Below are positions 36,151 through 62,479 of a stretch of 64,000 bases of DNA, piece after piece (within the stretch, counting starts at the first letter, position 1; every line of letters starts with the position of its first letter). The translations under genes and the position numbers were made by a program. The notes beneath the pieces are model-generated. The model had not been told where the DNA came from and ran no database searches. It was given only the letters and a program-made list of their open reading frames with translations. The stretch lies in NCBI GenBank assembly GCA_021442155.1, contig CM038214.1, forward strand, positions 56,700,514 through 56,764,513. Reading direction: 5' to 3'. The stretch is from Cymbidium sinense (Eukaryota > Streptophyta > Magnoliopsida > Asparagales > Orchidaceae).

Positions 36151-36640
36151 TTTTTTTTAATAGAGAACAAATTCAGATTCAACATTTATTCATTTTGATT
36201 TAATCAACCAAGTAGCACACGAAGTTTTCTAATACATAAGTGATGATATAGATAAGAAATGAGCACAAATAGGGCAAATAAAATACTCTAGATAACTAGA
36301 ACCATCTCTACTATAAAGTTATAGTTCCATAAGTAGTAGATTGGTTCAGTCATTTTTCAATTTCTTTAGTTCTCATCAACCACCATCAGCCTCTCGAGTA
36401 GTGGCATCCACCATCATATCCCCATTATCTCCCTTCGCCAGCACCACAGCTGTAACCTCCGTCGCTCCTCCCACCTCTTTAACCACCACTACTCGGACCA
36501 CCACCTCCATATCCACCAGCACCACCAGATACCCCACCACCATTGCAATAACCTTCACTTCTTCCTTCACCTCCAACATTAGATCTAGACTAAGCCTAAT
36601 TGACGGTGATGTTCCTGCCATCAAGGTTCTGCCCATTCTT
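36151..36640 (-). pseudogene. GRP retrocopy fragment 1 (glycine-rich RNA-binding protein 3' end)
   Basis: The minus strand reads the last strand of an RNA recognition motif, NGQNLDGRNITVN, then a glycine-rich tail (GGAGGYGGGGPSSGG and similar) and a 3' UTR ending CTCTATTAAAAAAAA at 36158-36151, a poly(A) remnant. Plant GRP7/GRP2-type proteins have this layout: one RRM followed by a Gly/Tyr/Arg-rich domain ending near SDGNW. Two stops replace residues just after ITVN. The 5' end is cut within the RRM, where TTTAGGG begins. As only a spliced, polyadenylated end is present, I infer a retroposed copy; eight such fragments occur in the array. Confidence 0.85.
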
Positions 36641-38222
36641 AGGGTTTAGGTTTCAATTTAGGTTTATTAGCTTTTAGAGTTTAGGTTTATTTACTTATTT
36701 ATTTAGTTACTTTTGATTTAGGTTTAGGGTTTAGGGTTTAGGGTTTGGGTTTAGGGATTAGGGTCTAGGGTTTAGGGTTTAGGGTTTGGTGGTTGGGTTT
36801 AGGTTGAGTTTAACATAGAGTTAGGGAAGTGGGTTTAGTGAGGATTTAGGGATTTAGGTGGGGTTAGCTTATAGTTTAGAGGGTTTAGGCCTGTGATTTG
36901 TTAGTAGTTTAGGTCAGTGGTTTAGGTTTAGGGAGGGTGGGTGTGGTGTGATAGTTTAAGTGGGATATCAGTTTAGGGTTTGTGGTAGGGTTTAAGGCCT
37001 GGGTAGTCCAAGGTCAGGTCATATCAGTGGAGAGTTTATGATCTGGCAGGTCAGTGGCCCAGTCAGTGTAGAGTGGAGGGTTTAGGACTCCACGAGTCCA
37101 GGGTTTGGGATTGGGAGGGAGGGAGGGAGGTTTATTATTTGGGTCAGGGTTTAGGTTTAGGGGTTAGGGCCGAGGTTAGGTTGAGGTAGAGGGAGTTTAA
37201 GGTTTAAGGATTTTAGGGTTTAGGGTTTAAGGTTTAGGGTTTAGGGTTTTTTCTTGATTTTTTCTTAAATTAAGTAAGCAAGTAGCTTTAGGTTTATTTA
37301 GTTCATTTAGTTTATTTTTTTTATTTAGTTTAGTTTGTTATATTTTTTTATTTTTATTTAGGTTTATTTTTATTTTTATTTAGTTTAGTTTATTTATATT
37401 AGGTTTATTTATTTTAATTTAGTTTTATTTTTATTTTATTTTTTAAGTTTAGGTTTTATTTTTTTATTTTAGCTTTATGTTTTGGTTTTTATTTTATTTT
37501 TAAGGTTTAGGTTTTAGGTTTATTTTTAGGTTAAAGTTTAGTTTATTTTTAGTTTAATTTATTTTATTTTATTTTGGTTTAGGTTTAGGTTTAGGGTTAG
37601 TCTTAGGTTTTATTTAATTTAGTTTAGGTTTAGGTTTATTTCATTTGTATTTTACATTCAAGTTTTTTTTTACTTTAGGGTTTAGGTTTTATTTTTTATT
37701 TATTTTTAAGTTTTATTTTAAGGTTTATTTTTTATGTTTTGTTTGTTATTTAGTTTTCAATTTATTTTATTTTAGGTTAATTTTATTTTTATTTTATGTT
37801 TAATTTTATTTTATTTAGATTTTTTATTCTTAGGTTTATTTTATTTTTTTAGTTTAATTTAGGTTTTTATTTATTTTATTTTAGTTTATTTTATTTTTTT
37901 AGGTTTAGGTTTAGGTTTTAGTTTTATTTTCTTTTTTTATTTCGTTTAGGTTTAGGGTTTAGGGTTTATTTTATTTTAAGGTTTTATTTAGTTTAGGTTT
38001 AGGTTTTTAGGTTTTTAGGGTATAGGGTTAGTTTAGGGTTTATAGTTTAGGGTTTAGGGTTGTAAGTTTTAGGATTTAGGGTTTAGAGTTTTGGGTTTTG
38101 GGTTTAGAGTTTTAAAGTTTAGGATTTAGGGTTTCAGACTTTAAGGGTTTAGGGGTTTAGCTTTTAGGTTAATGGTTTATGTTTTAGTTTATGGTTTAGG
38201 GTTCAGGATTTAGTGTTTATGA
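36641..38222 (+). repeat. Array spacer 2
   Basis: TTTAGGG variants lead into a GC-richer, scrambled block (about 36790-37200, rich in GTGGGTTTAG, GGTCAG and GGGAGGG). The CTTAAATTAAGTAAG landmark stands at about 37263. A long T-rich block (37300-37970) follows, then TTTAGGG-like DNA up to the next GRP fragment. No genes. Confidence 0.85.
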
Positions 38223-38658
38223 TTTTTTTTAACATAGAACAAATTTAGATTTAACATTTCTTCTTTTTATTTCATTAACCAAGTAGTACACCAGGTTTTC
38301 TAAGTCAAAAGCGATGACATAGATCAAAAATAAGCACACATAGAGCAAATCAAAAACCCTCATAACTAGAACCATCTATATTATAAAGATAGTCCCATAA
38401 GCAATAGATCGTATCAGCCATTCTTCATATTCTCCAATTCCCATTAGAACCACCCACGCCTCTCCCTCCACCACCACCATAGTTATAACCTCCATCGCTC
38501 ATTCCGCCTCCATAACCGCCACCTTCATATCCACCAGCACCTCCAGATCCCCCACCACCACTGTGATAACCGCCGCCTCTGCTTTCCCCTACATGGCCAG
38601 ATCTAGATTGAGACTAATTGACAATAATGTTCCTGTCGTGAAGGTTCTACCCATTATT
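38223..38658 (-). pseudogene. GRP retrocopy fragment 2
   Basis: Same layout as fragment 1. RRM end read as NLHDRNIIVN, then SQSRSG and the glycine-rich tail SGGGGSGGAGGYEGGGYGGG, GGYNYGGGGG and the end GSNGNWRI with a stop. The block that encodes DGGSRYSR in other copies is missing, an internal deletion. The poly(A) remnant is at 38230-38223. Stops occur in the RRM part only. Confidence 0.85.
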
Positions 38659-40196
38659 AAGGTTTAGGTTTATGTTTTATTTTACTAGGTTTTAGGGTTT
38701 AGTAATATTTTTTTAGTTACTTTAGGTTTAGGTTTAGGGTTTAGGATTAGGGTTTAGAAATTAGGGTTTAGTTTAGGTGGGGTTGAGTTTAGTGGGTTTA
38801 GGGAGTTTAGGGTTTAGGGTAGTGGATGTAGGTTGGCTTTATGGAGGTCAGGGTAGGGTTTATAGAGTTTAGGTTTAGGAGAGAGATTTTTAAGTAGGTG
38901 GGTAGTGGTCCAGGTTTAGGTGTGGAGGGTTTAAGAAAATTTAAGGTCATTGGTAGATAGGGAGAGAGGTTTAGGGGTCATAGCCAGGGAGGATTTAGGA
39001 GTGACTGGCTCAGATTTAGGAGAGGGTCTTAGGATGGTAGTGGATGTTATTTAAGGTTTATGATTTAGTGAGAGTTTTAGATTTAGGGTAGGAGGCCAGG
39101 GTTTAGATTTAGAACAGCATTTAGGGTCCATGGATCAGTGTTCAGTGCCAGGTCAGCCTGGGGGTTTAGGTCAGGTCAGGGGGTCAGGTGCAAGGGTTTA
39201 CTAGGTGTCAGGTTAAGGTTTATGGTTTAGGGTTTAGGAGGTTTAGGGTGGGCCTAGTCAGAGGTGTAGGTTTAGAATTATTATGTTTAGGGTTTATTTA
39301 TTTTAGGTTAATTATTTATGTAGGTTTTATTTAGTTTTATTTTATTTAAAGGTCTTTATTTTTATTTTATGTTTAGTTTTATTTTATTTTAATTTTTTAT
39401 TTTAGGTTTATCTTTTAGGTTTATTTTATTTTAGTTTAGTTTATTTTAGGTTTATGATCAGATTTAGCTTTATTTTATTTTATTTTATTTATTTTATTTA
39501 GGATCATGTTTATCTTTATTATTAGGTTTATTGTTATGTTTTTGTGGTTATCAGCACAGGCTTTGTGGTTTAGTTTAGGGCCCAACATTTGTTTATGGTT
39601 TGGGGGGTAGGGCCTGGGACAGGTAGTGTTTAGGGTCCCAGGGTTTATGGTTTATGGATTGTTTTAGGCTCAGTCTAGGATTTAGTGGAGTTTTTGGGTT
39701 ATTTAGGTAGGTTTTCTGTCAGTTTAAGGTCAGTGGCCCAGTTTAGGTTAGCCAGTCCAGGATATGGCCCAGCCTGAGAGGAGAGATCAGGGCCTGGCTG
39801 GCCCAGGGAAGATTTAGTGATTCACAAGGTCAGGGTTAGTTTGTTGGGAATGTAGTTAGGATTTTAGCCCAGGTCAGTAGCCTGGGTTAAGGGAGGGAGG
39901 TAGTGTTTAGAGTGGTGGTGGGAGAGTGGATGGAGGTTGTGGGGAGAGTGGCCTGGGGAGAGAGGTTTGGGAGGTTTAGGGTGGTAGTGTTTGGGTAGGT
40001 ATGTAGGTTTAGGTTTAAGGTTTAGGATTTAAGGTTTAGGGTTGTAGGGTTTAGGGTTTAGGGTTTTAGGGTTTAGAATTTAGGTTTTTAGAGTTTAGGG
40101 TTTAGTGTTTAGGATTTAGGGTTTTGGGTTAATTTAGGGTTTATGGTTTATGTTAGTGTTTAGGGTTTAGGTTTTATTTTAGGTTTAGGTTAATAC
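38659..40196 (+). repeat. Array spacer 3
   Basis: TTTAGGG variants, two GC-richer blocks (about 38770-39260 and 39540-40000, with GGCCCAG, GGCCTGG and CCAGGG motifs) around a short T-rich block (39290-39540), then TTTAGGG-like DNA. The landmark CTTAAATTAAGTAAG is not recognisable here. No genes. Confidence 0.8.
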
Positions 40197-40667
40197 TTTT
40201 TTTTAACGAAGAACAAATTCATATTCAATATTTCTTCTTTACGATTTTGTTAATCAAGTACCAGACCAAGTTTTCTAAGATGCAAGCGACGGCATAGATA
40301 AAAAATGGCCATGCATATAGCAAATCAAAAACCCTAGATAGCTAGAACCCTCTCTAATGTAAAGTCTTAGTTCCATAAGCAACAGATCAGATCGCCCATT
40401 CTTCGCTTTCTCTAGTTCCCATCAGAACTACCCCCTCTCGAGTAGCGAGATCCTCCATCATATCCCTGATCTCTCCCTTCTCCACAACCACAGTTGTAAC
40501 CTCTATCCCTCATCCCTCCTCCATAAATGCACCTTCATATCCACCAGCACCTCCAGATCCCCCACCACCACTAGAATAACCACTGCCTCTACCTTCGCCT
40601 CAACGACCAGATCTAACTTGAGCCTAGTTGATGGTGATATTCCTACCGTCATGGTTCTGCCAATTTT
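40197..40667 (-). pseudogene. GRP retrocopy fragment 3
   Basis: Reads GQNHDGRNITIN, a stop, AQVRSGR, then GSGYSSGGGGSGGAGGYEG. A one-base shift follows, then GYNCGCGEGRDQGYDGG, SRYSRGGSSDGN and a stop where Trp is expected. Poly(A) remnant at 40204-40197. The 3' UTR matches the other copies. Confidence 0.85.
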
Positions 40668-41333
40668 AGGGTTTAGGTTTAGGTTTAAGTCTATTAGCTT
40701 TTAGGGTTTAGGATTATTTTTATTTATTTATTTAGTTACTTTAGGTTGAGGTTTATGGTTTAGGGTTACTTTAGGTTTAAGTTTATGGTTTAGGGTTTAG
40801 GTTAGTTGGTTTTTAGGATTTTGGGTTTGGGTTTAGTGGGAGTTTGGGTTTAGGTTTGGGTTTAAGGTTTTAGTCTCAGGATTTAGTGTTTAGGGTTTAG
40901 GTTAGGTTTGTGTATGTCAAGTTTAGAGTTTAGGATTTAGGATTTAGGTTTTGGGTTTGGGTTTAGTTTAAGTTTTAAGTTTTAAGTTTGGGTTGGGTTT
41001 AGGTTTAGGTTTGGGTTTAGTATTTAGTTAGGTTTAGAGCATTTAGGTTTAGGTTTAGGTTTAGCATTTAGGTTTATAGTTTTAGGGTTTAGGTTTAGGG
41101 TTTAGGCTTAGTTTGGTTTAAGTTATTTGGGTTTTTTAGCTTTGTGGTTTAGCTTAGGTTTAGGATTATGGGTTTAGAGTTTAGGGTTAGTTTAGGCTTT
41201 AGGGTTTGGGATTTAGGGTTTAGGGTTAGGGGTTAGGATTTAGGGTTTAGGGTTTAGGATTTAAGGTTTAAGGTTTATGGTTTTTTTAGGGTTTATTGTT
41301 TAGGGTTTAGTGTTTAGGGTTGCAAGTTTAGGG
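40668..41333 (+). repeat. Array spacer 4
   Basis: TTTAGGG variants with GGTTTAGGTTTGGG-type drift, ending GCAAGTTTAGGG directly against the poly(T) of LINE copy A. No genes. Confidence 0.85.
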
Positions 41334-41344
41334 TTTTTTTTTTT

Positions 41345-44300
41345 GGGAAACCCCACATAGGGGGAATTTTATTGCCACAAAAGAGGGTTACAAGATCCTT
41401 AACAAGGGATAAACTCTACAACTACTGCTCAAAGAGCTACAATCAGCCTAGAGAGTAAATCCCTTATCTAAGTACAACCAAAAGAAAAATGAAAGAGTAA
41501 AGGAAAGCAAAAGATACAAATTGATTAACCTAGATTAGCCAATGAATAGATGTAGGCCAAAGCTCTTCAGGATGAGAGAATGCATGACACTAGGGAGCAA
41601 ATCTGCAAGAGAATAAGATAAACGCACCTGCAAAATTGTAGAAAGATAGAAATTAGAGCAGTTAAAGTAATACATACAAAATGAAAATTGAAAACAACAT
41701 AAATTGAGAAAGATTATAAAGAAGTGTGTGAGAGAAGGCTCAGGTTCAGTCACACCAAATTGGGGCAGATGTAAATATGAGCATCCAAACTTCAGCAGAA
41801 GGGTTACATCACAAGAGCTACTACCAAACCAAAAAGGAGTGAAATCATCACAGTCATCATAGCCAACAAACCTGTGGGAAGATAGCAACCATTTGTTGAA
41901 AGTCTTTTGAGCCTTAGTACCTGCAAACCTAAACAAAGCCATAAACACAATAGAAAAGGATACAATAAAGAGCAGAATGAGAAAGGGGATCCCATGCAGA
42001 GTAAGTATCATCAATATAGTCACCATGGCATGAGAATCTCTACACATATGAAAATGAAACATCTTTGCCTGATACACCTTATTTTTTACTAGGGCCAAGA
42101 GTTTAATTAGACCATCATGAAAACCCACCACAAGAAAATAGCAGAAAAGGCCAGGCAGAGGAAAGAAGCAAATATACAACCAATTTAAAAGCCTGCTGAA
42201 ATCCAGCAAGACAAATCAAATAGCATGTAATTAACTCCATCCTAAACATATGGGACATATATGAAACTTACAGTCCTGGTATATAGCCCGGAATATAGCT
42301 CTGAAAAAGGTACCCAATCAGAATAAGCATTGATGTTAACAACCCCCTTGTTAATAATCATTGCAAAAGTTAATAACCAGCAAGTGTAAAGTAAGATAGC
42401 ATAACCCAAACCCAAATAAGAAATGCAAAAGTTTAACAGAGCTAAGATGGGAATGCAGCAGCAGATTAGATGGACCAGAAGCCACAGGTAATAAGGTGCT
42501 CCCCACCACAAACAATTCCAAATAAGGACAATAGAGACAGCCACAGTAGCACTTACTAGGCATAAAACCAGATAATCCAGTTCAGCCAACAACCAAGACA
42601 GCAAATAATAGCAAGCTGGCCATAAAACTACCCATTCAAAATAGAAAGTGTATAAGATAATATCCAAGTAGGTAATAGCATGATCATAGTGATCTGCACT
42701 AGTCTAACAGAACCAAGATGAAAAAATAGTAGCATTAAATAACAAACATCACCGATTAGGTTGGAAACAAGAAAATAATCGAAAAACAATAACAAATAGC
42801 CAACAACCTCAAAGGCAGCCTACTGGACATAAGACCAGAAAATCCAACACCCAATAATTAAAACAACAATACAATTATTGCACCCACCATAGGATAAGCC
42901 AGTAAAAAAGAGAGGTACAACATAGATACAAAAGGGGTTCAAAAGATAGCCATCATTGAAATCCTTCAAAACAAAGAACAGTAGGCTTGCAGCTAAACCA
43001 ACATCCTCAGTAAAAGCAGACTGGAAAGAAATCATTAAGTAAGTCTAATCCTGCTAAGAGATAATAATAATAATAATGGTATTGCAGTTTCTACTTACAA
43101 CCCCAAAAGTAGCCTGCTGGACATGAGAGACAACCCCAGCAGCATCTTGCTGGGCATAAAACCCGATAATCCAGTTCAGCCAACAACCAAGACAACAAAT
43201 AACAGCAAGCTGGCCATAAAACCACCCATTCAGAAAAGACAGTGCATAAGTTAATTTCCAAGTAGGTAATAGCATAATCACAGTGATCTGGACAAGTCTA
43301 ACTAAATCAAGATGGAAAAAACAATAACAGCTTAGATAGACCACAAACATGTGGTGATCAGCTGCAGCCCAGTTGTAAACAACAAAAAATCAAAAAAACA
43401 AAAGCCAACAACCTTAGAAGTAGCCTGCTAGACATAAGATCCAAAAATCCAACAGCCAATAATTAAAACAATAATACAATTATTGTACCCACCATAAGAT
43501 AAGACAGTAAAAAATAGTGGTACAACATAGACACAAAAGGGGTTCAAAAGGGAGCCATCATTGAAATCCTTCAAAATAAAGGAGAACAGGCTTGCAGCTA
43601 AACTAACATCCTCAGTAAAAGAAGACTGGAAAGAAATTGTTAAGTATGTCCAATCCTACATAGAGACAATAATAATAACAAGGGTATGACAGTTTCTCTC
43701 CTTACAGCTTGGTAAGGTGAGGTTAGCAAAAGCAATCAGAAAAACATCCCCAAAAATAGCCTGTTGGACATAAGACCAGAAAATCCAATAGCCAATAATT
43801 AAAACAACAAAACATTTATTACACCCACCATAAGATAATCTAGTAAATAATAGTGGAACATCATAAAGTCGAAAGTGGTTCAAAGGAATGCCATCTTTGA
43901 ATCCTTCAAGACACTGAAAAGCAGACCAGTAGCTAAGCCCACATCATCAGTAAAAATAGGCTGGAAGGAAATCAAGAAGTAATTCCAATCCTGGAAAGAA
44001 GAAGTTATAGTAACAAGGGTAATGCATTTTCCCTCCTTACAGGTTGTGGAGCAGAGGTTAGGGAGCATAAGAGGGTCCACATCCATAATAAAGGGAGAAA
44101 AAATAGATAAATTAGGGCCTATCATGAAGCTATACAGCAATATAGCAATTAAACATTGATACAATAAAGTCATGAGCCCCAGAATAGATTTCTAGAAAAA
44201 GGAAAAAAGATAGAAGATAGCCTTAATCATATAATGGAAAATAGATACAGTAGGACCCCTTAACAAAATATTGATGGCAAGAAGTTTGTCCCTGTTGATC

Positions 44301-44600
44301 AGAAAGTAAAGCAGAAAGTAAAGCATAAGGTAATACATCTCCCTCTAGCAGAGAGGAAACACCTTACCATTAATAGTGGTAATAGTAGAAGCAGTAAGAC
44401 CCCAAAAAAGGTTAGGGTAATTAATCCAACAGCAGATGTCACAGAGATCAGCAATTAACTAGGAAGGGGTATCAAAAAAATGCATCAGGAAAATCCAGAG
44501 AAACAACAACACTATATAGAAGTTGATCATGCAGTTAAACAGGTAATATAATAGGCCAAACCAATAGGATGGATTAATTTCTGACGTAAGGGAATCAAGA
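41345..44600 (-). other. LINE copy A 3' UTR
   Basis: About 3 kb between the RNase H end and the poly(A). In sense it is T-rich, so it yields long hydrophobic pseudo-ORFs (for example 42209-41535 and 42667-42242) that lack any family features. The last 120 bases hold GTAGCTCTTTGAGCAGTAG and the AATAAA signal, repeated in the short LINE tail at 35.7 kb. Confidence 0.75.
42545..44165 (-). repeat. Tandem repeats of about 300 bp in the LINE 3' UTR
   Basis: The top strand shows the motif CTGG(A/G)CATAA(G/A)ACC(A/C)GA followed by AATCCA and CCAATAATTAAAAC or a variant near 42555, 42820, 43145, 43427 and 43760. Larger blocks repeat at about 590-610 bases (GATAATCCAGTTCAGCC at about 42568 and 43157; GTTCAAAAG.GAGCCATCATTGAAATCC-type text at about 42930 and 43535, with a third near 43875). 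Spacing alternates, so units are heterogeneous. Confidence 0.75.
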
Positions 44601-46373
44601 ATTTTCCAAATTAACCAAATCACGCAAATGTTTAGGAAGTGTAAGTTGATCAAAGAATTTTATGCCATCTAATCTATCACCTAGATTAGCAAAGTAATCA
44701 GCACATGCATTACCTTGATGCCATACATAAGTGATTTTAAAATAAAGTTGAGAAAGGAGAGCTCTAGTCGCTTGATAAGGTAGTACAATTCTGTATTGCC
44801 CATTTTAGTTGAAGTCAAAAGATCAATCAGCAACATGACATCCACCTCAATCCAAATATTGAGCCAACCTTTTTGAAGGAAAATCTCCATAGCTTAGTAA
44901 ACGCCATTAGCAAAGTAAAAGGAATAGAGCAAGTATTAAGAGGGTAAGCAAAAGAACATAGGACTTTACCATTAAGGTTTCTAAAAATTCCACCATAGCC
45001 AGAAGCATTTTGAGAGACAGAGCCATGAGTCTTAATTTTAATAGTATTAACATGAGGTTTTACCCAATAAATAATCTTGTCATCTTTACAGTTGGGTGGA
45101 TCCGATAAGTTAAAGCCCGATTTATTAGCCACAAATTTAAAGCCTTTGAATTGATTGTAGTTATTAAATTGGAATTAAACAAGTCACAAATTTTATTTTT
45201 AATTCTAGCAATTATCCTCATGTAGTTTATTGGAATCCCATAATGTTTTGCATCATTTCTGTCCATCCATATGAACCAAATAAGAGTGATAACATTTATG
45301 ACTTTAATGTGGACTTTAATAGTGTTTTCAAAATAAACTTCAAGAAGTTGGTATAGAGTTAAGGATCCATTGAATTTGACAATATTAAAGAGATCATCAT
45401 ACCAAATCTAAAGTTTGGATGCAATAGCTCCATTAACAAATACATGATTCACATTCTCAAGGTGAAAGCAGCAGTAGCATTTTGAAGGTAAGTAAAAACC
45501 TTTACCCTACATCACGGAGTCAACAGGGATAAAGTTTTTCAAAATATTCCAAGTTAGAACAGAATAGGAAATAGGAATAGTGTTATTCCAAAGTTAAAAA
45601 TACACATTGGAGAAATCATGAGCTTCTTTAATATGAATCCAAACATTTTTAAGGTTGAAATCACCATTTTGGGAAAGCTTAAAAAAGATCTGATCATGAT
45701 TTCTAGGAATGATTGGGATAATAGTAAGCTTATCTAAAAGAGAGAAAGGAATAAAGTCAGTAAACTTTCTATTGTTCCACTTATTATTCTTCCAGAAAGA
45801 GTTCACTTTAATAGCAGCAGTGGAGTGGGTAGAAAGTAATTCATCAATGGACCCACCTCCAGTCCAGTTATCTTGTCAAAAGAAAGAGGTTCTAGAGTTA
45901 ATCCCCAAGAGATTAAAGATTTTGCTTCCCATTTGATGGAATAAAGTCTTTTCCATACAGGAGAGTCTCCCACTTTATAAGGGCAAATGAGAGGGTTACC
46001 CGGCGATTTTGATCATGAAATTAGCCCAAAGATAATTGTTGCTCCTAAAATTCCACCAAAGTTTATAAGAAAAAGCAGTGATAGCTTCCCTGATTAGCTT
46101 ACAGCCAAGCCCACCTTCTGCAAGAGTGCCTCAACTTTTATACAAAGAGATCCAATGTATTCTTTTAGTAGAATTATTAAAACCCCTGAAGAATTTGTTA
46201 AGGAGGCGCTCAATTCTATTAATGGTAGAATTGGTCAGAACAATAGTTTGAATGAGATATAAAGGCATGGAGTTAAGGGTGCTCTTAATCAAAGTGAGCC
46301 TACCACCAAATGAGAGTAAATGAAATTCACAAATAGAAATTTTATTAGAGATTTTTTGGATTAACTCATCCAA
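44600..46373 (-). pseudogene. LINE copy A linker, zinc finger and RNase H
   Basis: After RT come LSFGGRLTLIKSTLNSMPLY (46373-46131) and FFRGFNNSTKRIHWI, the usual L1 linker. The zf-RVT motif reads KCYCCFHLENVNHVF near 45440-45480. The RNase H follows: NASGYGGIFRNLNGKVLCSF (about 45000), then WHQGNACADYFANLGDRLDG (about 44670-44730), which has the conserved Asp of the last motif. Stops fall at about 45060 and elsewhere. RNase H in the ORF2 protein is common in plant L1. Confidence 0.82.
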
Positions 46374-47560: not shown

Positions 47561-47578
47561 TAAGGCTTTCTTTTTTTT

Positions 47579-51130: not shown

Positions 51131-51249
51131 TTGTTTAATAAATTTTGAAAATGATGTATGACAGAATCTTTAATATCATTATTATTAGTAATCCAGGTGC
51201 CGTTATCATTTTTGATTTTTTTTAATAGAGTTTTAGGCTTTCTTTTTTT

Positions 51250-51474: not shown

Positions 51475-51489
51475 TACTTGCTCCACAGA

Positions 51490-52337
51490 TTTAGATTTTA
51501 TTTAAGCCTTTTTAGCTTAAGCCAAAGGTGAATCATGCCTTTAACAGAATTATCAGGATGAATAAGGGCCCACCAATTAATGGAAACAACATTGATGAAT
51601 TCACTATGATGGATCCACATATTTTGGAATCTAAAGGGAGTAGGGGAGGATGGTCTAGTGGAGGGATTTTTGACAGAAATCAAAAGCGGAGCATGGTCAG
51701 ATAAAGTTCTTCTTAAATGTTCAACCCAAGTAAGAGGCCATTGATTGGTCAAAAGGGAATTAAAGAAAGTCCTATCAAGCCGCTGCAAAAGTCTAGAATT
51801 ATGCCACGTGTAGTCTAAACCTGAAAAGCCAATATCAATCAGATTACAATCAAGAATCATATTAGAAAAGTCTTCCATGGAATGAATATTAGGAGAGCAA
51901 CCTCCCCTTCTTTCCGAGGAAGCGAGAATAGTATTGAAATCACCAACAACCAACCAAGGTTTGTTGATAGAGGAGGCAAAGGTTCTTAAGTTATCCCAAA
52001 GGATGTTCCTACCAGTTCTATTACAAGATCCATAAATAAATGAACCAAGAGCAAAAAATTCATCTAATGAGATTTGAACATTAAGCAATTGATGAAGGTC
52101 ATCAAGGATAGAGATGTTGAATAAATTATTCCAAAAACACCAAATTTTATTGTTAATATTATAAAAGAAGTTTTGAAAGCCAAACATTCTAGCAACCTGG
52201 GTGATCTTAGAGGAGTGTATGAATGGTTCAATAACAACAAGTAAGGCTATGTTATGAGTACGGCAAAGGCTTCTAATACGGTTGCGAAAAATGAGAGTCC
52301 CAATACTCCTAACATTTCAAATAAGAAAATTAATCAT
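51490..52337 (-). pseudogene. LINE copy B endonuclease (start of ORF2)
   Basis: ORF2 opens at ATG 52337 with MINFLI, where a stop replaces the Trp of the usual WNVRG motif. It continues to the ORF at 52187-51498: GSCNRTGRNILWDNL, KPWLVVGDFNTIL (the catalytic GDFN box), LDRTFFNSLLTNQWPLTW and SDHAPLLISVKN (the last catalytic box). The fold is an apurinic-endonuclease-like nuclease that nicks target DNA. The 229-codon stretch is open and all catalytic boxes after the first are intact. Confidence 0.88.
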
Positions 52338-52439
52338 AATAAATAAGAAGAAAAAAGGAAAGATAACAGAAGGATAAAATAAGAAGAAAGACACATGATG
52401 TAATCATTTATGGGAAGTTAGAGAAGATCTAGTGGTTCT

Positions 52440-53827
52440 AGTGGAGCTATTAGTGAACATTCTAGCTTTAAAGGATTATTTTTTAGTAACAGTTTGAAAA
52501 GGTCTATCTATGTCTAATGTATCTCCATCCGAGAGAGAGTGATTTGTGAAATTTAGAGTAGGGCCAGTATCTGCCAAAACATTTTTAATTGTAATTTCCC
52601 CTTCTTCAGTGTCAGAATTGAGATGTGGAATTGGGTTAGCCTGAGTATCACTCTGAAGGGTAAGAGAGGGAGAGGTTGTGAAACCATTAATAGCGCAATT
52701 TTCATGTTCAGTTTCAAAAATACTTTTCAGATTTTGTTCCACTACCAAAGGATCAACATTTTTCAGATTTTGTTCTTTCATCAAATGGGCACTTTCAGAA
52801 TTAGTTTTTAGATTTTGTTCTGACCTAAAATTCCCATTCAAGTCACCATTAGTGTTCATATGAGTCTCGTCGGGTTCACTAGCCAAAGGGGCAAGGTAGA
52901 ATGAATCAAGGTATTACCTAGAGGAACCAAATTATTACAATTAGAAGCAATAATAAGTAAGTTATCATTGTCCTCCTCATCAACCTTATGAGCCTTATTA
53001 TTAACCTACTCAGAATGCTCTCCAATAGACAAATCAATAGATAGTAATCCCTTTTGAGTGACTTTAGGCACATAAGCCAATTTATTAGTTTTTTCATTTG
53101 CTGGAGTGGGATTAGGATCCGACAGTTTAATCTTTTCAAGATGAGGATGCAACACAAAGCATTCAGAATGATCATGACCAAGAATCTTACAGTGCGTGCA
53201 AAAAATAAGGAAATTTTTAAATTCCACTTTTTGATTATAACCAAATTTCTTAGAGACGATCCATACTTATTTAGGATACTTTTTGATAATATCAATCTCA
53301 ACTAAAATACGAGCAACTGATGGCCATGATCTCGCTGGGTCGATCAATTTGAAGGGACCAAAGAGAGCCCCAACCGCAAAAAGAACTTGATGGGTAATGT
53401 AATGTATTCTCATGTTTGGAGCTAGCCATAAAGGAACATCTTCTTTCAAAAGTCTCATTTGATAATTATACACAAAGTAGGAGCGACGAGCAAAAACTCT
53501 TGAGTAATCTAAGTCATTAGATAGCTGAATAAGGATATGCCAAGGATCAATCAACCCGATAGTGAAAACGCCAGAGAGCTTTAGGCTATGAAAAAAGGAT
53601 CGGATGTTATCAAGAGTCGGGCGACGTAAGGAAAATTTACCAACTAAAGAGAATTCAAAAGGCTTCGCCAATTTTTCCACGTCAAGATCCGAGCACATTA
53701 CAATAGGCATTCCATAAAAAGATGTTGAAATCAAATTGACCGAAGCATTAGAAGAAGTGTTATTACCAGATAATGCATCCTTGAAGGACTTAACAGTAGG
53801 CAGAGTAATAGATGGAGTCGGATCCAT
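52440..53827 (-). pseudogene. LINE copy B ORF1 (DUF4283, zinc knuckle)
   Basis: The ORF starts MDPTPSITLPTVKSFKDAL at 53827 and runs 186 codons through a DUF4283 domain (VGKFSLRRPTLDNIRSFF, DPWHILIQLSNDLDYSRVF, FKLIDPARSWPSVARILVEI). After a frame break comes a CCHC zinc knuckle, CTHCKILGHDHSEC (53210-53160), then an acidic, Ser/Asn-rich tail (52886-52476) ending FQTVTKK and a stop. Plant L1 ORF1 proteins bind element RNA with this domain order. Only one or two frame breaks separate the pieces. Confidence 0.88.
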
Positions 53828-54075
53828 AATACCTTATAAATCAGAAGCCCTAGCCGACGCCTCCAAGTTTGAAGAGCTCGGTAGCGCAGAAAGCGCTGCC
53901 ATTGAAAGAGCAAGGGACACTCACATTAGCGGCCAAACAGAGACCAAAAATCCAAAATTATGATCGAGGAGGATCAAAAATCAGCCAAGCTGCAAGGAAA
54001 ATGCAAGAGAACATGAAAGCGCTAGAGAGGGCCGCAACCGAGAGGTTTTTTGGTAAACTTTTTAAGTGGTTTAGG
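53828..54075 (-). other. LINE copy B 5' UTR
   Basis: Non-telomeric, purine-rich (on the top strand) DNA between the ORF1 start and the array. The top-strand ORFs at 53736 and 53869 are shadows. The 5' end near 54075 (AAACTTTTTAAGTGG) passes into TTTAGGG variants. This is the only L1 copy in the window that keeps its 5' end. Confidence 0.7.
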
Positions 54076-56616
54076 GTATAGGGTTTGGGTTTATGGTTTG
54101 GGGTTAATGGTTTAAGGTTTAAGGTTTAGGGTTTTAGGGTTTAGGGTTTAGTGTTTGATGTTTAGGGGTAGTTTAAGGTTTAGGGTTTAGGGATTAGTTT
54201 TTTAGGGTTTAGGGTTTAGGGTTTAGGGTCTAGCATTTAGAGTTTAGGGATTAGGATTTAGTGTTTAGGGTTAGTTTAGGATTTAGGGTTTATGGTCTAG
54301 GGTGTAGGGTTTAGGGTTTAGGTTCTATAGATTAGGGTTTAAGGTTTATGGTTTTTTAGAGTTTTGGGTTTAGAGTTTAAGGTTTAGGGTTGTAGGTTAG
54401 TGTTGAGGATTTCGGGTTGTAGGTTTAGGGTTTAGAGTTTAGGGTTTATTGTTTAGGGTTTATGGTTTAGGGTTTAGGATTTAGGGTTTGGGTTTTTAGG
54501 TTTTAAGGTTTACAGTTTAGGTTTTAGGGTTTATTTATTTCTTAAATTAAGTAAGTAGTTTTATTTATTTAATTTTTAGTCTATTTTTTAATTTATTTTA
54601 GTTTATTTTATTCTATTTTTATTTTATTTTATTTTATTTTATTATTTTAGTTTATTTTATTTTATTTTTATTTTTTATTATTATTTTATTGGTTTTAGGT
54701 TTTCTATTTATTTTTTAGTTTTCATTTTATTTATTTTAAGTTATTTTTTTTAGTTTTAGTAGTTTAAGTTTAGTTTATTTTTAGTTTATTTTATTTTATT
54801 TAGTTTAGGTTTAGGTTTACGTTTAGTTTATTTAGGTTTATGTTTAAATTTCATTTATTTTAGTTTAGTTTATTTCTTTTAAGTTTATTTTATTTTGTTT
54901 ATTTTATTTTTTACAGTTTAAATTTTTTTTAGTTGGGTTTAGGTTTTATTTTTTTATTTATTTTATTTTAACCATTTAGGTGAGGTTTTAATTTATTTTT
55001 ATTTATTATTTAGGTTTATTTATTTTATTTTAGGTTAGTTTTTTTATTTTATAGATTTTTTATTTTATTTTATAGTTTTATTTTTTTATCATTTTAGGTT
55101 AAGATAGTTTAGTTTTATTTTATTTTATTTTTTTTATTTTAGGTTATTTATTTTATTTTAGGTTCATTTAGTTTGTTTATGTTTTTTGGTTAGGTTTTAG
55201 TCATTAGGTTTAGTTTGTGATCTCAGTTTAAGGTTTAATGTTTGGGTTTAGGTTTAGGGTTAGGTTTTAGGGTTTTATTTTGGGTTGGGTTTAGGCTTTG
55301 GTTTTTGTTTAGGCAATTGGGTTGGTTTCTTTGTTAGTTTTAGGGGGTAGTGGCCTAGTTAGTAGCATTTAGTTAGGATTTAGGGTAGTGGTGTGGATTA
55401 AGATCTTAGAGGTGTAGTTGGTGTTTAGATTATTTAGATTTGGTTTAGTTAGTAGTATTTTATGATTATACCAGAGCCTAGTGTAGGGTCAGAGGTTTAG
55501 GGTTGGTGGTAGGGTCAGGTTGGTAGAACAACATCATTGGTAGGGCTCAGGTTTAGTTTAGGGCCTTAGGGAGGTTACAATTTAGGGTAGGGTTTTTGTT
55601 TATTTTTAAATGCTTGTTATGTCCAGGTTTATTTTAGTTGTTATTTTTATTTAGGTTTGTTTATTTATTTAGTTATTTTATTTATATAGTTATTTATTTT
55701 ATTTGGTTTTTTTTTTTTAGTTCCAGATTTTTTTTTTTAGGTTTAGGTTTTGATTTTGATTTTATTTTTTTAGGTTTAAGTTTTAGGTTTTATTTTTTAG
55801 AGTAGTTTAGGTTATATTATTTTTAGTTTAATTTCTTTATATTTATTTTACATTTAAGTTTAGCTTTAGTTTATTTTAGTTTTAGGTTTAGGTTTTAGTT
55901 ATTTTAGTTTAGTTTATTTTATTTGTTTTATTTCTTTTATTTTATTTAAGTTGTTTTTTATTTAGGGTTTGTGTTTTATTTTATTTTTTTTTTTTTTATT
56001 TTAGTTTTAATTTTTAGGTTTTTTTTAGGTTTTATTTTATTTTTATTTTAGTTTTATTTTATTTTTTATTTCATTTAGTTTTTATTTTATTTAGGTTTTA
56101 TTTTAGGTTTATTTCATTTTTATTAGTTTTTTTTATATTTGTTTTAGTTTATTTTATTAGTTTATTTTATTTAGTTTCTTAGGTTTTAGTAGGTTTTAGT
56201 AAGTTTTTTATCTTTATTTTATTTTTTTATTATATTTATGTTCTGATTTAGGGTTTATTTTATTTTAGGTTTAGTTTTAGAGTTTAAGGTGTTTAGGGTG
56301 AGTTTAGGGTTTAGGGTTTGGGGTTTAGGGTTTAGGGCTTAGGGTTGTAGGTTTTAGGATTTAAGGTTTAGGGTTTTGGGTTTAGAGTTTTAGGGTTTAC
56401 GGTTTAAGATTTAGGTTTTAGGGTTTTTTTGTTTTTTATATGTTTTAGTGTTTAGGGTTTAGGGTTTAGGGTTTAAGGTTTAGGTTTTAAGTTTAGGGTT
56501 TATGTTCTAGGTTTTATGGGTTTTTTTATTTTTTATATGGTTTAGGGTTTAGGGTTTAAGGTTTAGGTTTTAGGTTTAGGGTTTATGTTCTAGTTTATGG
56601 TTTGGGGTTTATGGTC
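54076..56616 (+). repeat. Array spacer 7
   Basis: TTTAGGG variants (54076-54540), landmark CTTAAATTAAGTAAG at about 54545, a T-rich block (54550-55190), a GC-richer block (55200-55600), another T-rich block (55610-56230) and TTTAGGG up to GRP fragment 5. It is longer than a single period, so a GRP fragment may have been lost here. The text just before fragment 5 is locally duplicated (GTTTTTTATATG near 56430 and 56530). No genes. Confidence 0.82.
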
Positions 56617-57062
56617 TTTTTTTTTGTAGAGAACAAATTCAGATTTAACATTTCCTCTTCTTGATTTCATCAACCAAGTAGCACACCAAGGTTTCTAAGA
56701 CATAAGCGATGACGCATATCTAAATTGAGCACGCATAGAGCAAATCAAAAACCCTAGATAACTAGAAACATCTCTACTATAAAGGCACAGTTCCATAAGC
56801 AGTAGATCGGATCGATCGTTATTCAAATTCTCCAGTTTCCATCAGAATCACCCTTTCATCTTGAGTAGTGAGATCCACCATCATATCCCTCATCTCTCCC
56901 TCCGCCACCACAAGCTTATAATGTCTGCTTCTGCTTCCTCATACAACCACCACCTCCATATCCACCGACTCTAGATCCTCACCACGATAATAACCATCGC
57001 CTTCAGCCACGACTGGATCGAGACTTGTTGATAATGTTCATAGCCAAGGTTCTACCCATTTT
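56617..57062 (-). pseudogene. GRP retrocopy fragment 5, heavily decayed
   Basis: The 3' UTR and poly(A) remnant (56625-56617) match the other copies. The coding part is scrambled by indels: NGNL-like text and glycine-rich pieces occur in all three frames. The GGSRYS-like block is present only as DNA similarity. It shares the RRM-side breakpoint (CCCATT, then TTTAAGG) with fragments 1-4. Confidence 0.75.
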
Positions 57063-58821
57063 TAAGGTTTAAGTTTAGGTTTAGGTTTTTTAGCTTTAAG
57101 GTTTTTGCTTTATTTTTTTAGTTGCTTTAGGTTTAGGATTAGTGTTTTGGAATTAGGGTTTAGGGGTTAGGGTTTAGGGTTTTGGGTTTTTGGGTTTAAG
57201 GTTTTAAGGTATAACATTTTGGGGTTTAGGGTTTAGGATTTTTGGGTTTATGGTTGTTTAGGGTTTGTGGGAGTGGAGGAGTTAGGAGGGTTATAGTGGT
57301 AAGTCAGAAGTTTAGGTTTAGGGCCTGGGAAGGAGTGAGGGTTTAGGAGTTTAGATTTAGGAGTGGAGTGATTTAGGGTTTAGGGTAGTGGTTAGGGCAA
57401 GGTATGGTTTAGGGTGTGGAAGGTCAAGGTTTAGGATTTAGGGATTAGGTCCAAAGATTTAGAGTGGGATCAGTTTTGTGGTCAGTTTGTGGGTAGGATG
57501 GGCACAGGATCTGATTAAAGTTTACAAATCAGTATAGTTTTTAGATTTTTTTGGGGCCTAGGGTTGTAGGTTTAGTGTTGAGTTTTCAGGGTTGTAAGTT
57601 TAGGGTTTAGAGTTTAGGGTTTAGGGTTTAGGGTTTTGGGTTTATGGTTTAGGGTTTAGGATTTAGGGTTTAGGGTTTTTAGGTTTTAGGGTTTACGTTT
57701 AGGTTTTAGTGTTTATTTATTTATTTCTTAAATTAAGTAAGTCGTTAGGTTTACATTTATTTAGTTTGTTTTGTTTATTTTTAATTTATTTTAGTTTATT
57801 TTATTTTCTATTTCTATTTAGGTTTATTTTTATTTTTATTTAGTTTTGCTTATTTATTTTAGGTTTATTTATTTAGTTTAGTTTTATTTTTATTTTATTT
57901 GTTAGGTTTAGGTTTTCTATTTTATTTTTAGGTTTTTATTTTAGGTTTATTTCTAAGTTTTATTTTATAGTTTAGGTTTAGGTTTAGGTTTAGTTTATTT
58001 AAAGTTTATTTTATTTTATTAAGTTTAGGTTTTGGTTTAAATTTCATTTATTTTAGTTTAGTTTATTTTTTGCTTAGGTTTATTTTATTTTGTTTATTTT
58101 ATTTTTATTTTAGATTTATGTTTTTTTTATTTTGGGTTTAGGTTTTATTTTTATTTATTTTTATTTTAATTATTTAGGCTATGATTTTAATTTAATTTTT
58201 ATTTAATTTTATTTTAGGTTTATTTTCTTTTTATCTTTGGTTTAGTTTTTATTTTATTAAGTTTTGTTATTTTTTAGGTTTAATTTAATTTTTATTTTAG
58301 TTTACATTTAGGTTTAGGATTATGTTTAGGTATTTCTTTTATTTTATTTTTTATTTTATTTAGGTTTAGGTTTATTTATTTATTTTAATTTTAGGTTTTA
58401 TTTAGTTTATGTTTATGTTTTTTGTTTTTTAGGATTTAGTGTTTAGGCTTTAGGGTTTAGGGTTTGTTTAGGGATTAAGGTTTGGGGTGTAGGGTTTAGG
58501 TTTAGGGTTTAGGGTTTATGGTTTACTGTTATAGGGTTTAAGGTTAAGGGTTTTGGGTTTAAGGTTTAACGTTTATTATTTAAGGTTTAGGGTTTTTAGG
58601 GAAAAGGGTTTAGGGTTTAGTTTAGGGTTTAGGGTTTCTTTAGTTTAGCATTTAAGGTTTAGGGTTTAGGATTTAGGGTTTAGGGTTTAGTTTTTGGTTA
58701 GTTTTAAGTTTAGGGTTTTAGGTTTAGGCTTTAGATATTAGGGTTTAGAATTTTAGGGTTTTTAGGGTATAAGGTTTAGGTTTTTGCTTTTGGTTAGGGG
58801 TTAAGGGTTTAAAGTTTAAGG
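57063..58821 (+). repeat. Array spacer 8
   Basis: TTTAGGG variants, a GC-richer block (57240-57540), TTTAGGG again, landmark CTTAAATTAAGTAAG at about 57728, a T-rich block (57740-58430) and TTTAGGG variants. The order matches spacers 2, 5 and 6. No genes. Confidence 0.85.
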
Positions 58822-59240
58822 TTTTTTTTAATAGAGAACAATTTCAGATTCAACATTTCTTCTCTTTAATTTCATCAACCAAGTAGCATACTAAGTTTTC
58901 TAAGATACAAGCGGTGACATAGATAAAAAATCATCACACATGGAGAAAATTAAAAACCCTAGATAACTAGAAACATCTCTACTGTAAAGACAAAATTCCA
59001 TAAGCAGTAGATCGGACTGTCATTCTTCATTTCTCCAGTTCCCCTCAGAACCACAGTTGCCTCTCGAGTAGCTGGATCTGCCATCATATCTCCAATATAT
59101 CCCTCGATAACCACCATAGCTATAACCTTCGTCGGTCCTCCCACCTCCATAACCAGCAACTCCACATCCATGAGAACCTCCAAATCCTACCTCCAAAACC
59201 ACACCTCCATATCCACCATCATATCCACCAGCACCTCTAG
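58822..59240 (-). pseudogene. GRP retrocopy fragment 6 (short type)
   Basis: The poly(A) remnant (58829-58822), 3' UTR and end of the Gly-rich tail (SSYSRGNCGSEGNWRNEE) are present, preceded by VGFGGSHGCGVAGYGGG and GYSYGGYRG. Unlike fragments 1-5 the copy stops inside the glycine-rich part (CTCTAG, then TAGGGTTTAGG); the RRM end is missing. Fragments 7 and 8 stop in a similar way, so these three form a second type. Confidence 0.83.
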
Positions 59241-60890
59241 TAGGGTTTAGGTTTAGGGTTTGGGTTTAGGGTTTAGGGTTTATGCTTTAGGCTTAGGGTT
59301 TTTAAGATTTAGGGTTTAGGGTTTTGGGATAGTTTATGGTTTAGGGTTAGTTTAGTGTTCAGGGTTTAGGGTTTAGGGATTTAGGGTTTAGGGTTTAATG
59401 TTTAGGGTTTAGGGTTTAGGGTTTAGGGTTTGGGTTTAGGGTTTAGGGTTTAGGGTTAGGGGATGTTTAGTGTTTAGGGTTTAGGGTTTAGGGTTTAGTA
59501 TTCAGGATATAGGATTTGTGATTTTAGGGTTTAGAGTTTAGGGTTTAAGGTTTAAGGTTTTTATTTATTTATTTATCTATATTAATTTTTTTAAATAAAC
59601 TAATCGAGTAGGTTTAGGTTTGTTTAGCTTAATTAATTAATTAATTAATTAATTAATTAATTTTTTGTTTATTTTATTTTTTATTTTTATTTAGGTTAAT
59701 TTGTATTTTTATTTATTTTAGGTTTATTTATTTTAGTTTAGGTTTATTTTCTTTTAGTTTTTTATTTTAGTTTAGGTTTAGGTTTAGGTTTAAGGTTTAG
59801 TTTAGTTTTATTTTATTTTATTTTTATGTTTAGGTTTTATTTTTATTTTGAGGTTTAGGTTTATGTTTTATTTTATTTTTTAGGTTTAGGTTTTTTTTAT
59901 TTTGATTTATTTTAGGTTTTTTTTTAGTTTATGTTTAGTTTTTTTTTTAATTTAATTTATTTTCTTTAGTTTAGGTTTAGGTTTCGGTTAGATTTATGTT
60001 TAGTTTATTTTAGGTTTAAGTTTAGGTTTTATATATTTTAGTTTAGTTTATTTTAGTTTAGGTTTATTTTATTTTAATTTTTTTTAAGTTTAGGGTTTAG
60101 ATTTTTATTTAATTTTCATTTTATTTTATTTTAGGTTTAATTAATGTTTATTTTAGGCTTAGTTTTTATTTTATTTAGTTTTTTTATTTTTAGGTTTATT
60201 TTATTTTTTAGTTTAATCTAGGATTTCATTTATTTTACTTTAGACTTGTTTTTATATTTTATTTTATTTTATTTTTAGGTTTAAGTTAGGTTTTTTATTT
60301 TGGTTTAGGTTTTAATTTATGTTTTTATTTATTTTATTTAGGTTTTAGTTTTTATATTTATTTTATTTTTAGGTTTTATTTAATTTAGGTTTAGGTTTTA
60401 AGTTTTTAGAGTTTAAGGTTTAGGGATAAGGTTTAGGGTTTTAGGGTTTAGGGATTAGGGTTTTTAGTTTAGGGTTTTTGGGTTTAGGGTTTAGGATTTA
60501 GGGTTTAGGGTTTGGGGTTTAGTGTTTAGAATTTAAGGTTTTTAGGGTTTCTGGTTTTGGTTTAGGGTTTAGGTTTTAGGGTTTAGGGTTTAGGGTTTGG
60601 GGGTTAGAGTTTAGGGTTTATGTTATAGGGTTTAGGGTTTAGGGTTTAAGGTTTAGAGTTAAGGTTTATGGTTTAGGGTTTAGTGTTTACGCTTTATGAT
60701 TTAGTTTTTGGGCTTTTGGGTTTAGGGTTTTTAGGGTTTAGGGTTTAGGGTTGAGGTTTAGCTTAAGGTTTGGTTTTAAGGTTTATGGTTGTTTAGGTTT
60801 GGGCTTTAGAGTTTAGGGCTTAGGGTTAGGGATTAGGGTTTAGGGTTTTAGGATTTTTAGTGTTTAAGTTTTAGTTTGGGGTTTAAGTTA
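59241..60890 (+). repeat. Array spacer 9
   Basis: Includes some of the cleanest TTTAGGG runs of the window (about 59395-59450). A T-rich block (59560-60360) follows, with an AATT microsatellite and a weak landmark near 59590, then TTTAGGG variants. No GC-richer block lies between fragments 6 and 7. No genes. Confidence 0.85.
59629..59666 (+). repeat. (AATT)n microsatellite
   Basis: About nine TTAA/AATT units inside a T-rich block of the array; not seen in the other spacers. Confidence 0.9.
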
Positions 60891-61369
60891 TTTTTTTAAT
60901 AGAGAACAAATTCATGTTCAACATTTCTTCTTTTTGATTTCACCAACCAAGTAGCAGACCAAGTTTTCTAAGATACAAGCTACGACATAGATAAAAAATG
61001 AGCACGCATAGAGAAAATCAAAAACCCTAGATAACTAGAACCATCGCTACTGAAAGGACACAGTTCCATAAGCAGCAGATCGGTTCGGCGTATCTTTAAT
61101 TTCTCCTGTTCCCATCAAAACCACCCTCGTCTCTCTAGTAGTTGGATCCACCATCATATCCCTGATCTATCCCTCCGCCACACCACGACTGTAACCTCCA
61201 ATGCTCCTCCCGCCTCCATAACCACCACCACAGTTGTAACCTCTGATGCTCCTTCCTCCTTCAGAACCACTACCTCCATACCCACCAGCACGTCTAGAAC
61301 CATAAGCACATCCAGATCCCCCACCTCTAGATCCTGCCTCCATAACCACCACCTCCATATCCACCAGTA
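60891..61369 (-). pseudogene. GRP retrocopy fragment 7 (short type)
   Basis: Reads SRGGGSGCAYGSRRAGGYGG, then GGRSIRGYNCGGGYGGGRSI and GGYSRG, with a frame shift before GYDGGSNY, a stop and GFDGNRRN. Its Gly-rich domain has extra SGxAYGSRxA and GRSIGGY repeats shared with fragment 8 but not seen in 1-5. Poly(A) remnant at 60897-60891. The 5' edge is CCACCAGTAGGG, against TTTAGGG. Confidence 0.85.
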
Positions 61370-62004
61370 GGGTTAGGGTTTAGGGTTTGGGGTTTTAGGA
61401 TTTAGGGATTAGGATTTCTAGTTTAGGGTTTTAGAGTTTAGGGTTTAGGACTTAGGGTTTAGGGTTTGGGGTTTAGTGTTTAGGATTTATGGTATTTAGA
61501 GTTTAGGGCTTAGGGTTTATGGTTTAGGTTTAGGTTTTAGGTTTTAGTGATTAGGGTTTAGGGTTTAGGGTTAGGGTTTAGGGTTTACGGTATAGGGTTT
61601 AGGGTTTAGGGTTTACAATATAGGGTTTAGGGTTTAGGGTTTATGGTTTAGGGTTTGATGGTTTAGGATTTTTGGGTTTAAGGTTTAGAGTTAAGGTTTA
61701 GGGTTTATGATTTAGTGTTTAGGGTTTATGATTTAGTTTTTGAGCTTTTGGGTTCAGGGTTTTTAGGGTAGAGGGTTAGCTTAAGGTTTAGGGTTAGTTT
61801 AGGGTTTAGGGTTTAGGGTTTTAGGGTTTAGGGTAGGGGTTTAAGATATAAGGATTACGATTTGGATTTAGGATTTAGGGTTTAGAGTTTTAATGTTTAA
61901 GTTACTTAAGTTTGGGCTTTAGGGTTCAGGGTTTAGGGTTAGTGATTAAGGTTTAGGGTTTTAGGATTTTTAGTGTTTAGGTTTTAGTTTGGGATTTAAG
62001 ATAT
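61370..62004 (+). repeat. Array spacer 10 (short)
   Basis: Only about 630 bases of TTTAGGG variants separate fragments 7 and 8; the T-rich and GC-richer blocks are absent. The text before the T-run (TTTAGTGTTTA.GTTTTAGTTTGGG) is the same as before fragment 7, so this is a recent, short-period duplication or a deletion. Confidence 0.85.
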
Positions 62005-62479
62005 GTTTTTAATAGGGAACAAATTCAGATTCAACATTTCTTCTTTTTGATTTCATCAACCAAGTAGCACACCAAGTTTTCTAAGATACAATCTACGACA
62101 TAGATAAAAAATGAGCATGCATAGAGCAAATCAAAAACCCAAGATAACTAGAACCATCTTTATTATAAAGACACAGTTCCATAAGCATCAAATCAGTTTG
62201 ACCCTTCTTTAGTTTCTCTAGTTCCCATCAGAACCACCCTCGTCTCTCGAGTAGCGGGATCCACCATCATATACTTGATCTATCCCTCCACCACCACCAT
62301 GGTTGTAACCTCCGATGCTCCTCCCGCCTCCATAACCACCACCATGGCTGTAACATCCGACGCTCCAACCGCCTCCATAACCACCACCTCCATAACCATC
62401 AGCATGTCTAGAACCATAAGCACTGCCAGATCCCCCACCTCTAGATCCTACCTCCATAACCACCATGTCCATATCCATA
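62005..62479 (-). pseudogene. GRP retrocopy fragment 8 (short type, best open frame)
   Basis: An 86-codon open reading (62478-62218) passes through SRGGGSGSAYGSRHADGYGG, GGYGGGWSVGCYSHGGGYGG, GRSIGGYNHGGGGG and YDGGSRYSRDEGGSDGN, then a stop replaces the Trp. It shares the SGSAYGSR and GGGRSIGGY repeats with fragment 7 and starts at about the same place in the domain. Without the RRM and a start codon in context it is not a functional gene. The poly(A) remnant is reduced to five T (62006-62010). Confidence 0.86.

Follow-up and report, generated by a model that had tools for sequence, protein, structure and literature searches.

The origin of satellite DNA is usually sought in other repeats or in transposons. 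Processed pseudogenes made by long interspersed nuclear elements (LINEs) carry a poly(A) remnant, a truncated 5' end and a decayed reading frame, and they are ordinarily single loci. Telomere-specific retrotransposons without long terminal repeats (non-LTR) of the TRAS/SART type encode both an endonuclease and a reverse transcriptase (RT) in their unit. Here, we analyze a stretch of 64,000 nucleotides from the orchid Cymbidium sinense (the window, G000:C1:56700514-56764513, in a genome assembly of 3,525,751,733 bases and 2,174 contigs), in which blocks matching the 3' end of a messenger RNA (mRNA) for a glycine-rich RNA-binding protein (GRP) recur within degenerate telomere-like TTTAGGG repeats. 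The blocks resemble LINE-made retrocopies in poly(A) remnant, 5' truncation and decayed frame and differ from them in being part of a satellite unit. They contain GRP sequence only, while a neighboring LINE has endonuclease and RT. Very probably, the arrangement goes back to one retroposition of a 5'-truncated GRP mRNA into a TTTAGGG-like array, with an L1-type LINE as the probable agent, and to subsequent amplification in a composite satellite of about 2 kb.

Several described systems come close to individual aspects of this arrangement. The human D4Z4 macrosatellite with its DUX4 retrogene is similar in that a retrogene resides within each tandem unit and, according to the parts of the accounts available, D4Z4 is subtelomeric, keeps an expressed gene and forms arrays of generally more than 10 repeats (PMC5849414, PMC3616921). 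The orchid satellite, in contrast, carries only a 3'-terminal remnant that is not under selection for the protein, has a telomere-like unit, occurs at tens of thousands of places and has kept no open reading frame in its GRP blocks. Huge interstitial arrays of TTTAGGG variants are known from the telomere-like mega-blocks of Cycas; the available portion of that account does not mention gene fragments as part of them, and its main text is free of the word "retrotransposon" (PMC9827991), whereas the orchid array is a composite unit with a piece of a host mRNA. In the vertebrate TERC-ITS loci, RNA-derived sequence likewise lies beside telomere-type repeats, but the source in these 41 loci from 22 species is telomerase RNA, as far as the accessible part of the report goes (PMC8537989), and not a protein-coding mRNA that was amplified on a massive scale. 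A retroelement-linked origin of plant satellites has been described for Lathyrus sativus, where tandem arrays within LTR retrotransposons gave rise to satellites; the source there, in the sections at hand, is the element's own repeats (PMC7004042), while in the orchid it is the mRNA of a host gene. Retrogenes in repeats, telomere-like mega-arrays, RNA pieces beside telomeres and element-derived satellites are therefore already known, and a literature search, with subscription journals mostly outside its reach, yielded no account of a telomere-like satellite in which part of a host mRNA has been amplified.

Between window positions 36150 and 62480, the minus strand carries eight GRP blocks of 420-492 bp (B1-B8, Table 1). 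The original prediction had described eight such blocks with a common 3' untranslated region (UTR), a poly(A) remnant and a Gly-rich end in degenerate TTTAGGG repeats, and all eight were recovered. One 3' UTR, the remnant of an A-run (interrupted in B8) and a Gly-rich C-terminus are common to the full set. Five blocks (B1-B5) extend to the end of the RRM (NGQNLDGRNIT-like), which is strongly decayed in B5, and the other three (B6-B8) end within the Gly-rich part, where TAGGG follows. The flanks consist of degenerate TTTAGGG and of T-rich TTTATTTT stretches. With LINE inserts subtracted, successive blocks are spaced by 2072, 1974, 2340, 4916, 2205, 2070 and 1115 bp; net spacing is thus close to 2 kb in five of the seven intervals (1974-2340 bp), as is typical of head-to-tail satellite DNA, and the unit measures about 2.0-2.3 kb, the window including one double and one half interval. 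Pairwise divergence of the 3' UTR among the window blocks is 11-25%. Because the blocks match one another with E values down to 4e-113 and occur at tens of thousands of places in the genome, this family is not a product of chance.

A protein search of the genome returned 64,196 candidates, and the best of the 150 that were scored lies at C13:36950460 with 83% identity, the next best reaching at most 67%. The C13 match starts at residue 29 and continues through the Gly-rich part; most other scored hits start at residues 55-61 (range 39-61), like the satellite, and six short ones resemble other RRM genes (two on C13, one each on C2, C15, C17 and C20). The 3-kb locus L048 around the best match contains an intact GRP gene (C13, ~36950260-36951045) composed of exon 1 with MAAPDVEYRLFIGGLSWSTDDKSLHTAFSPFGDVLESK, a GT-AG intron and exon 2, which reads up to GSDGNWRN and a stop codon. 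It has the layout of plant GRPs, an RRM followed by a Gly-rich tail, and both RRM halves match plant GRPs. Over about half of the protein, its product matches those of Dendrobium chrysotoxum (94%) and Phalaenopsis equestris (92%), the top two among 120 matches listed, which points to an orchid. Within the orchids, Vanilla is an unlikely source, since ATTAGGG is its telomere motif (PMC13340410).

When the blocks were aligned with host GRP sequences, they matched the 3' end of this C13 gene, and a consensus of 34 blocks is identical to the gene at 438 of 487 positions. The blocks represent the last ~490 nt of the GRP mRNA and start sharply at ATG|AATGGG, 93 nt into exon 2. A splice junction had been considered for this shared 5' end and was rejected, as the point lies inside exon 2. 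For comparison across loci, 69 blocks were sampled from the window and 31 other stretches; 49 of them come to within 3 nt of the 5' end, 63 extend to the 3' end and 46 extend to both, counts that give no genome-wide estimate of completeness, some blocks being cut by the ends of loci. At the 3' end, the gene reads TTGTTCTTTGTTTGATC (TTGTTCTTTGTTTGATCATT in longer form), and the blocks read TTGTTCTCTATT followed by A's. Where the gene has T, G, A and T (L048 positions 2246-2249), an A is present in 42, 44, 45 and 44 of the 46 end-to-end blocks, and an A-run of at least five residues occurs in 62 of the 63 blocks that reach the 3' end. A 24-mer from exon 2, 37 nt before the block begins, occurs exactly once in the genome, namely in the gene, and has four places at three mismatches (control 1). 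For a 26-mer that spans the end of the block and the adjacent 3' flank of the gene, there is a single exact place and again a single place at three mismatches (control 0). It is therefore the 3' piece of the mRNA that was amplified and not the gene sequence on either side of it. Both the A-run, missing from the source gene at that place, and the 5' truncation inside exon 2 are features of a retrocopy.

The copy number is very high. A DNA search of the genome with B4 gave 11,647 candidates, and 39 of the 40 that were scored (B4 included) span at least query positions 6-472 of 476. A 22-mer from the 3' UTR of the block was found with up to three mismatches at 71,550 places (36,184 + 35,366; reversed control 5 + 2, i.e. 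7) and a 26-mer across the junction of block 5' end and telomere-like DNA at 46,419 places (23,606 + 22,813; control 0), these figures being counts of words and not of proven whole blocks. At ~2.1 kb per unit, 71,550 copies would correspond to roughly 150 Mb or ~4% of the assembly. Counting array copies genome-wide, as already suggested in the original prediction, thus leads to tens of thousands, a scale that had been understated there. Exact (TTTAGGG)3 is present at 186,744 + 206,468 places, and the array analyzed here is interstitial, at 56.7 Mb of the 377-Mb contig C1.

An exact 47-mer across the 5' junction occurs at 71 places, 33 of them on C1, 26 on nine other large contigs (C2, C3, C4, C6, C7, C8, C9, C16 and C18) and 12 on small contigs. 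As C1 makes up only ~11% of the bases, this junction subfamily is enriched there. The complete list of 47-mer places is mixed in strand (40 plus, 31 minus; 18 and 15 on C1). A long-range polarity on C1 had been suggested by 87 of 100 listed 5'-junction places and nearly all UTR-word places lying on the plus strand; we make no such claim because the listed places are incomplete, the minus-strand place C1:32070741 carrying the junction word and yet being absent from the junction places listed. The C1 matches from the B4 and protein searches followed no left/right orientation rule (Fisher p 0.34).

In all 69 sampled blocks, the sense strand of the GRP sequence is the CCCTAAA strand, and none of the 16 multi-block loci contains blocks of mixed orientation. 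One main 5' joint prevails: across ten positions of the CCCTAA-like flank, the commonest base is present in 28-46 of the 46 end-to-end blocks, and for the ten flank bases before the block's first G it is present in 31-46. The flanking DNA is hence not unrelated between copies; unrelated flanks had been named in the original prediction as speaking against it. The block tree has a star-like shape: 11 of its 44 inner branches have good support, and the median end branch is 0.11. Multi-block stretches of C9, C3 and C1 align at 77-79% over ~5 kb and another pair at 74% over 2.7 kb; in the tree, some blocks of such aligned stretches are paired in matching order. Multi-block units therefore seem to have been copied between chromosomes. 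The 34-block consensus had also suggested a TAG in the RRM end common to all copies. This was dropped: the 46 end-to-end blocks have TAG in 27 cases, CAG, as in the gene, in 13 and other codons in six, so that TAG marks a subfamily and is not a trait of the founder.

The block copies are now without coding function. Seven of the eight window blocks contain stops or frameshifts, and the short Gly-rich remnant of B6 is open but has neither a start nor a proper stop. Differences from the consensus amount to 13.3, 12.0 and 13.9% at codon positions 1, 2 and 3 and to 11.3% in the UTR; the blocks have drifted without selection on the protein. An excess of C>T changes at CG and CHG is a mark of cytosine methylation. 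In the blocks, C>T changes affect 165 of 632 CpG (26%), 174 of 831 CHG (21%) and 111 of 1395 CHH sites (8%), G>A changes show the same context pattern, and the observed/expected ratio of CpG, 1.05 in the gene, lies between 0.42 and 0.77 in the eight window blocks. These figures may indirectly reflect a heterochromatic, methylated state of the satellite.

The LINEs that reside in the arrays may help to explain how the GRP sequence arrived there. RT and endonuclease of the LINE pieces in the window score above the Pfam cut-offs. In the sampled arrays, nine LINE 3' ends were found (window 35702-35826 and 41336-47572; L012, L020, L021, L024, L034, L045 and L046), all nine in the same orientation with the T-run on the G-rich strand, and in six of them TTTAGGG or TTTAGGA directly precedes the T-run. 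L1 endonucleases prefer TTTT/A-like sites. Since TTT/A exists only on the G strand of TTTAGGG, such arrays would capture poly(A) RNA always in the same orientation, and this could account for the GRP block without special assumptions. The polyadenylated mRNA of the C13 gene would thus have been reverse transcribed into a TTTAGGG-type array, most likely by the machinery of an L1-type LINE, and truncated at ATG|AATGGG. The endonuclease would open the G-rich strand at TTT/A, leaving a free GGGTTT-3' end that would pair with the poly(A) tail, and the complementary DNA (cDNA) would extend the G-rich strand, placing the sense GRP sequence on the CCCTAAA strand. At the poly(A) end of the block, the G-rich strand reads GG-TTTTTTTT-AATAG, and judged from these letters the strand ending in GGGTTT-3' would be the one continued by cDNA. 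The insert would then have become part of a ~2-kb composite unit of telomere-like, T-rich and GRP parts. Head-to-tail amplification of this unit and its copying from one chromosome to another would have raised its number to tens of thousands, and transposons would later have interrupted the satellite.

Some points weigh against this origin. As the only intron of the gene lies upstream of the block start, intron loss is not demonstrable, and the presumed mRNA origin is based on the A-run and on the sharp end. The 46 end-to-end blocks were chosen for reaching both consensus ends and consequently lean towards carriers of the A-run, and the sampled loci were retrieved by likeness to B4. A Pfam search of the block consensus found no RRM, and the sole match to a solved structure is weak (E 0.036). 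Both flanks are TTTAGGG-like, and a target-site duplication is not discernible within the repeats. The nine LINE ends may not be independent of each other, and their orientation may merely reflect the T-rich strand of TTTAGGG. Finally, the 5' flanks fall into at least two types, which leaves room for more than one insertion. GRP retrocopies inserted into telomere-like DNA many times independently, or a mobile element moving the array about, would also fit copies that are spread over many contigs and both strands and the alignment of the C9, C3 and C1 stretches, as expected of a dispersed unit. We consider this decidedly unlikely because a single 5' truncation point, flanked by telomere-like DNA, recurs at 46,419 places and tandem neighbors share one orientation; as to a mobile element, no element ends were noticed at the array edges on reading the window, in which no systematic search for them was made.

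A retroposition at a chromosome end is unlikely as well, but it is the alternative we take most seriously. The terminal TTTAGGG 3' end would have primed reverse transcription on the GRP poly(A) tail, telomerase would have added TTTAGGG to the cDNA end, and the terminal segment would later have moved inward and been amplified. In line with this, the G strand running 3' meets the block at its poly(A) side, the truncated end passes directly into TTAGGG/TAGGG in the junction types of the window, orientation is fixed across the block sample, and the accessible part of the work on TERC-ITSs describes telomerase-linked retrocopying beside telomere repeats (PMC8537989). A LINE nick at TTT/A within an array, however, yields an identical layout. 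Capture of exon 2 plus 3' flank at the DNA level, e.g. by a transposon or during break repair, with an incidental A-run, would agree with a block lying wholly in exon 2 and UTR and lacking visible signs of spliced-out sequence; it appears very improbable, as the match with the gene stops at one UTR point and is followed by A's without counterpart in the gene, the 3' flank of which is not amplified. An assembly artefact or contamination is hardly credible, even though satellites assemble poorly and small contigs hold 12 of the 71 exact 47-mer places: the blocks differ by ~10-20% from their consensus, they reside on chromosome-sized contigs, and the source gene is part of the same assembly. A merely local assembly error, a reservation of the original prediction, is excluded by tens of thousands of places on many contigs. 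The match to the gene's 3' end, the A-run without gene counterpart and the common 5' joint all agree with its proposal that a retroposed GRP transcript in telomere-type DNA was spread as a satellite, and a single retroposition within the array, probably LINE-driven, remains by far our preferred origin.

Table 1. Features of the window (positions within the 64,000 nucleotides).
Feature	Position	Strand
Second telomere-like/T-rich array stretch, without GRP block	2346..4010	+
Main composite array: degenerate TTTAGGG, T-rich TTTATTTT, G-rich stretches, GRP blocks, LINE inserts	34768..64000	+
Short 5'-truncated copy of the 3' end of the 41336-47572 LINE, GRP-block orientation	35702..35826	-
B1: RRM end, Gly-rich end, 3' UTR and A-run (plus-strand T-run 36151-36158)	36150..36641	-
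B2	38222..38659	-
B3	40196..40665	-
LINE piece (RT), A-tail as T-run at left, GRP-block orientation	41336..47572	-
B4; query of the genome-wide DNA search	48772..49248	-
LINE piece (endonuclease; DUF4283-like ORF1 below Pfam cut-off)	51132..54060	-
B5; reaches RRM end, much decayed	56616..57064	-
B6; 5'-shortened type, Gly-rich part directly against TAGGG	58821..59240	-
B7; 5'-shortened type, Gly-rich segments repeated	60891..61367	-
B8; 5'-shortened type, nearest B7 (UTR divergence 11%)	62006..62480	-

The main composite array runs to the right end of the window and continues into the adjoining stretch L046. Stretches of the same satellite that are free of GRP are located at 50282-54536 and 2798-4010. 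G-rich stretches with GGTCAGTGGCCCAGG-like words lie between telomere-like parts at 36780-37190, 38760-39270, 39540-40000, 49500-50220 and 55200-55600, and none were seen in the units of B6-B8. In the T-rich and telomere-like parts of both arrays, the plus strand is almost free of C, with 0-3% in many 250-bp bins when GRP blocks, inserts and G-rich stretches are excluded, and this near absence is not easily obtained from random decay of TTTAGGG. The unit motif TTTCTTAAATTAAGTAAG, a near-palindrome, was discarded, as it is only modestly above shuffles in other loci. The second array is adjoined at 1-2345 on the plus strand by the 3' end of a non-LTR retrotransposon with a TTG/TTA-rich tail, an element that we take to be RTE-like. 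Remains of Ty1/copia type (integrase end and retroviral SH3-like domain) are present at 27765-29619 within a satellite-free stretch of 30 kb.

Exact 21-mers are common to the gene and the blocks, at least one being shared by 51 of the 69 sampled blocks and a 24-mer by 28, and on the basis of these shared words small RNAs derived from the arrays could reach the source gene. It is a rather unlikely, more far-reaching idea that host mRNAs build chromosome ends, in that the G-strand 3' end of a telomere (GGGTTT) primed reverse transcription on GRP poly(A), telomerase capped the cDNA and a genome-wide satellite ensued, the GRP 3' ends feeding small RNAs or binding the GRP protein in trans. The orchid satellite points to a host gene as the raw material of a huge satellite, and the whole chain can be read in one genome: an intact source gene, an mRNA-type cut-out with poly(A), a telomere-like site and the multiplication into tens of thousands of copies. 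A question that follows is how the single source gene avoids being silenced, given that its 3' end is present so many times in the genome. Whether a host gene can seed a major satellite becomes directly testable, and the GRP block provides a tracer for the spread of telomere-like arrays through a large plant genome.

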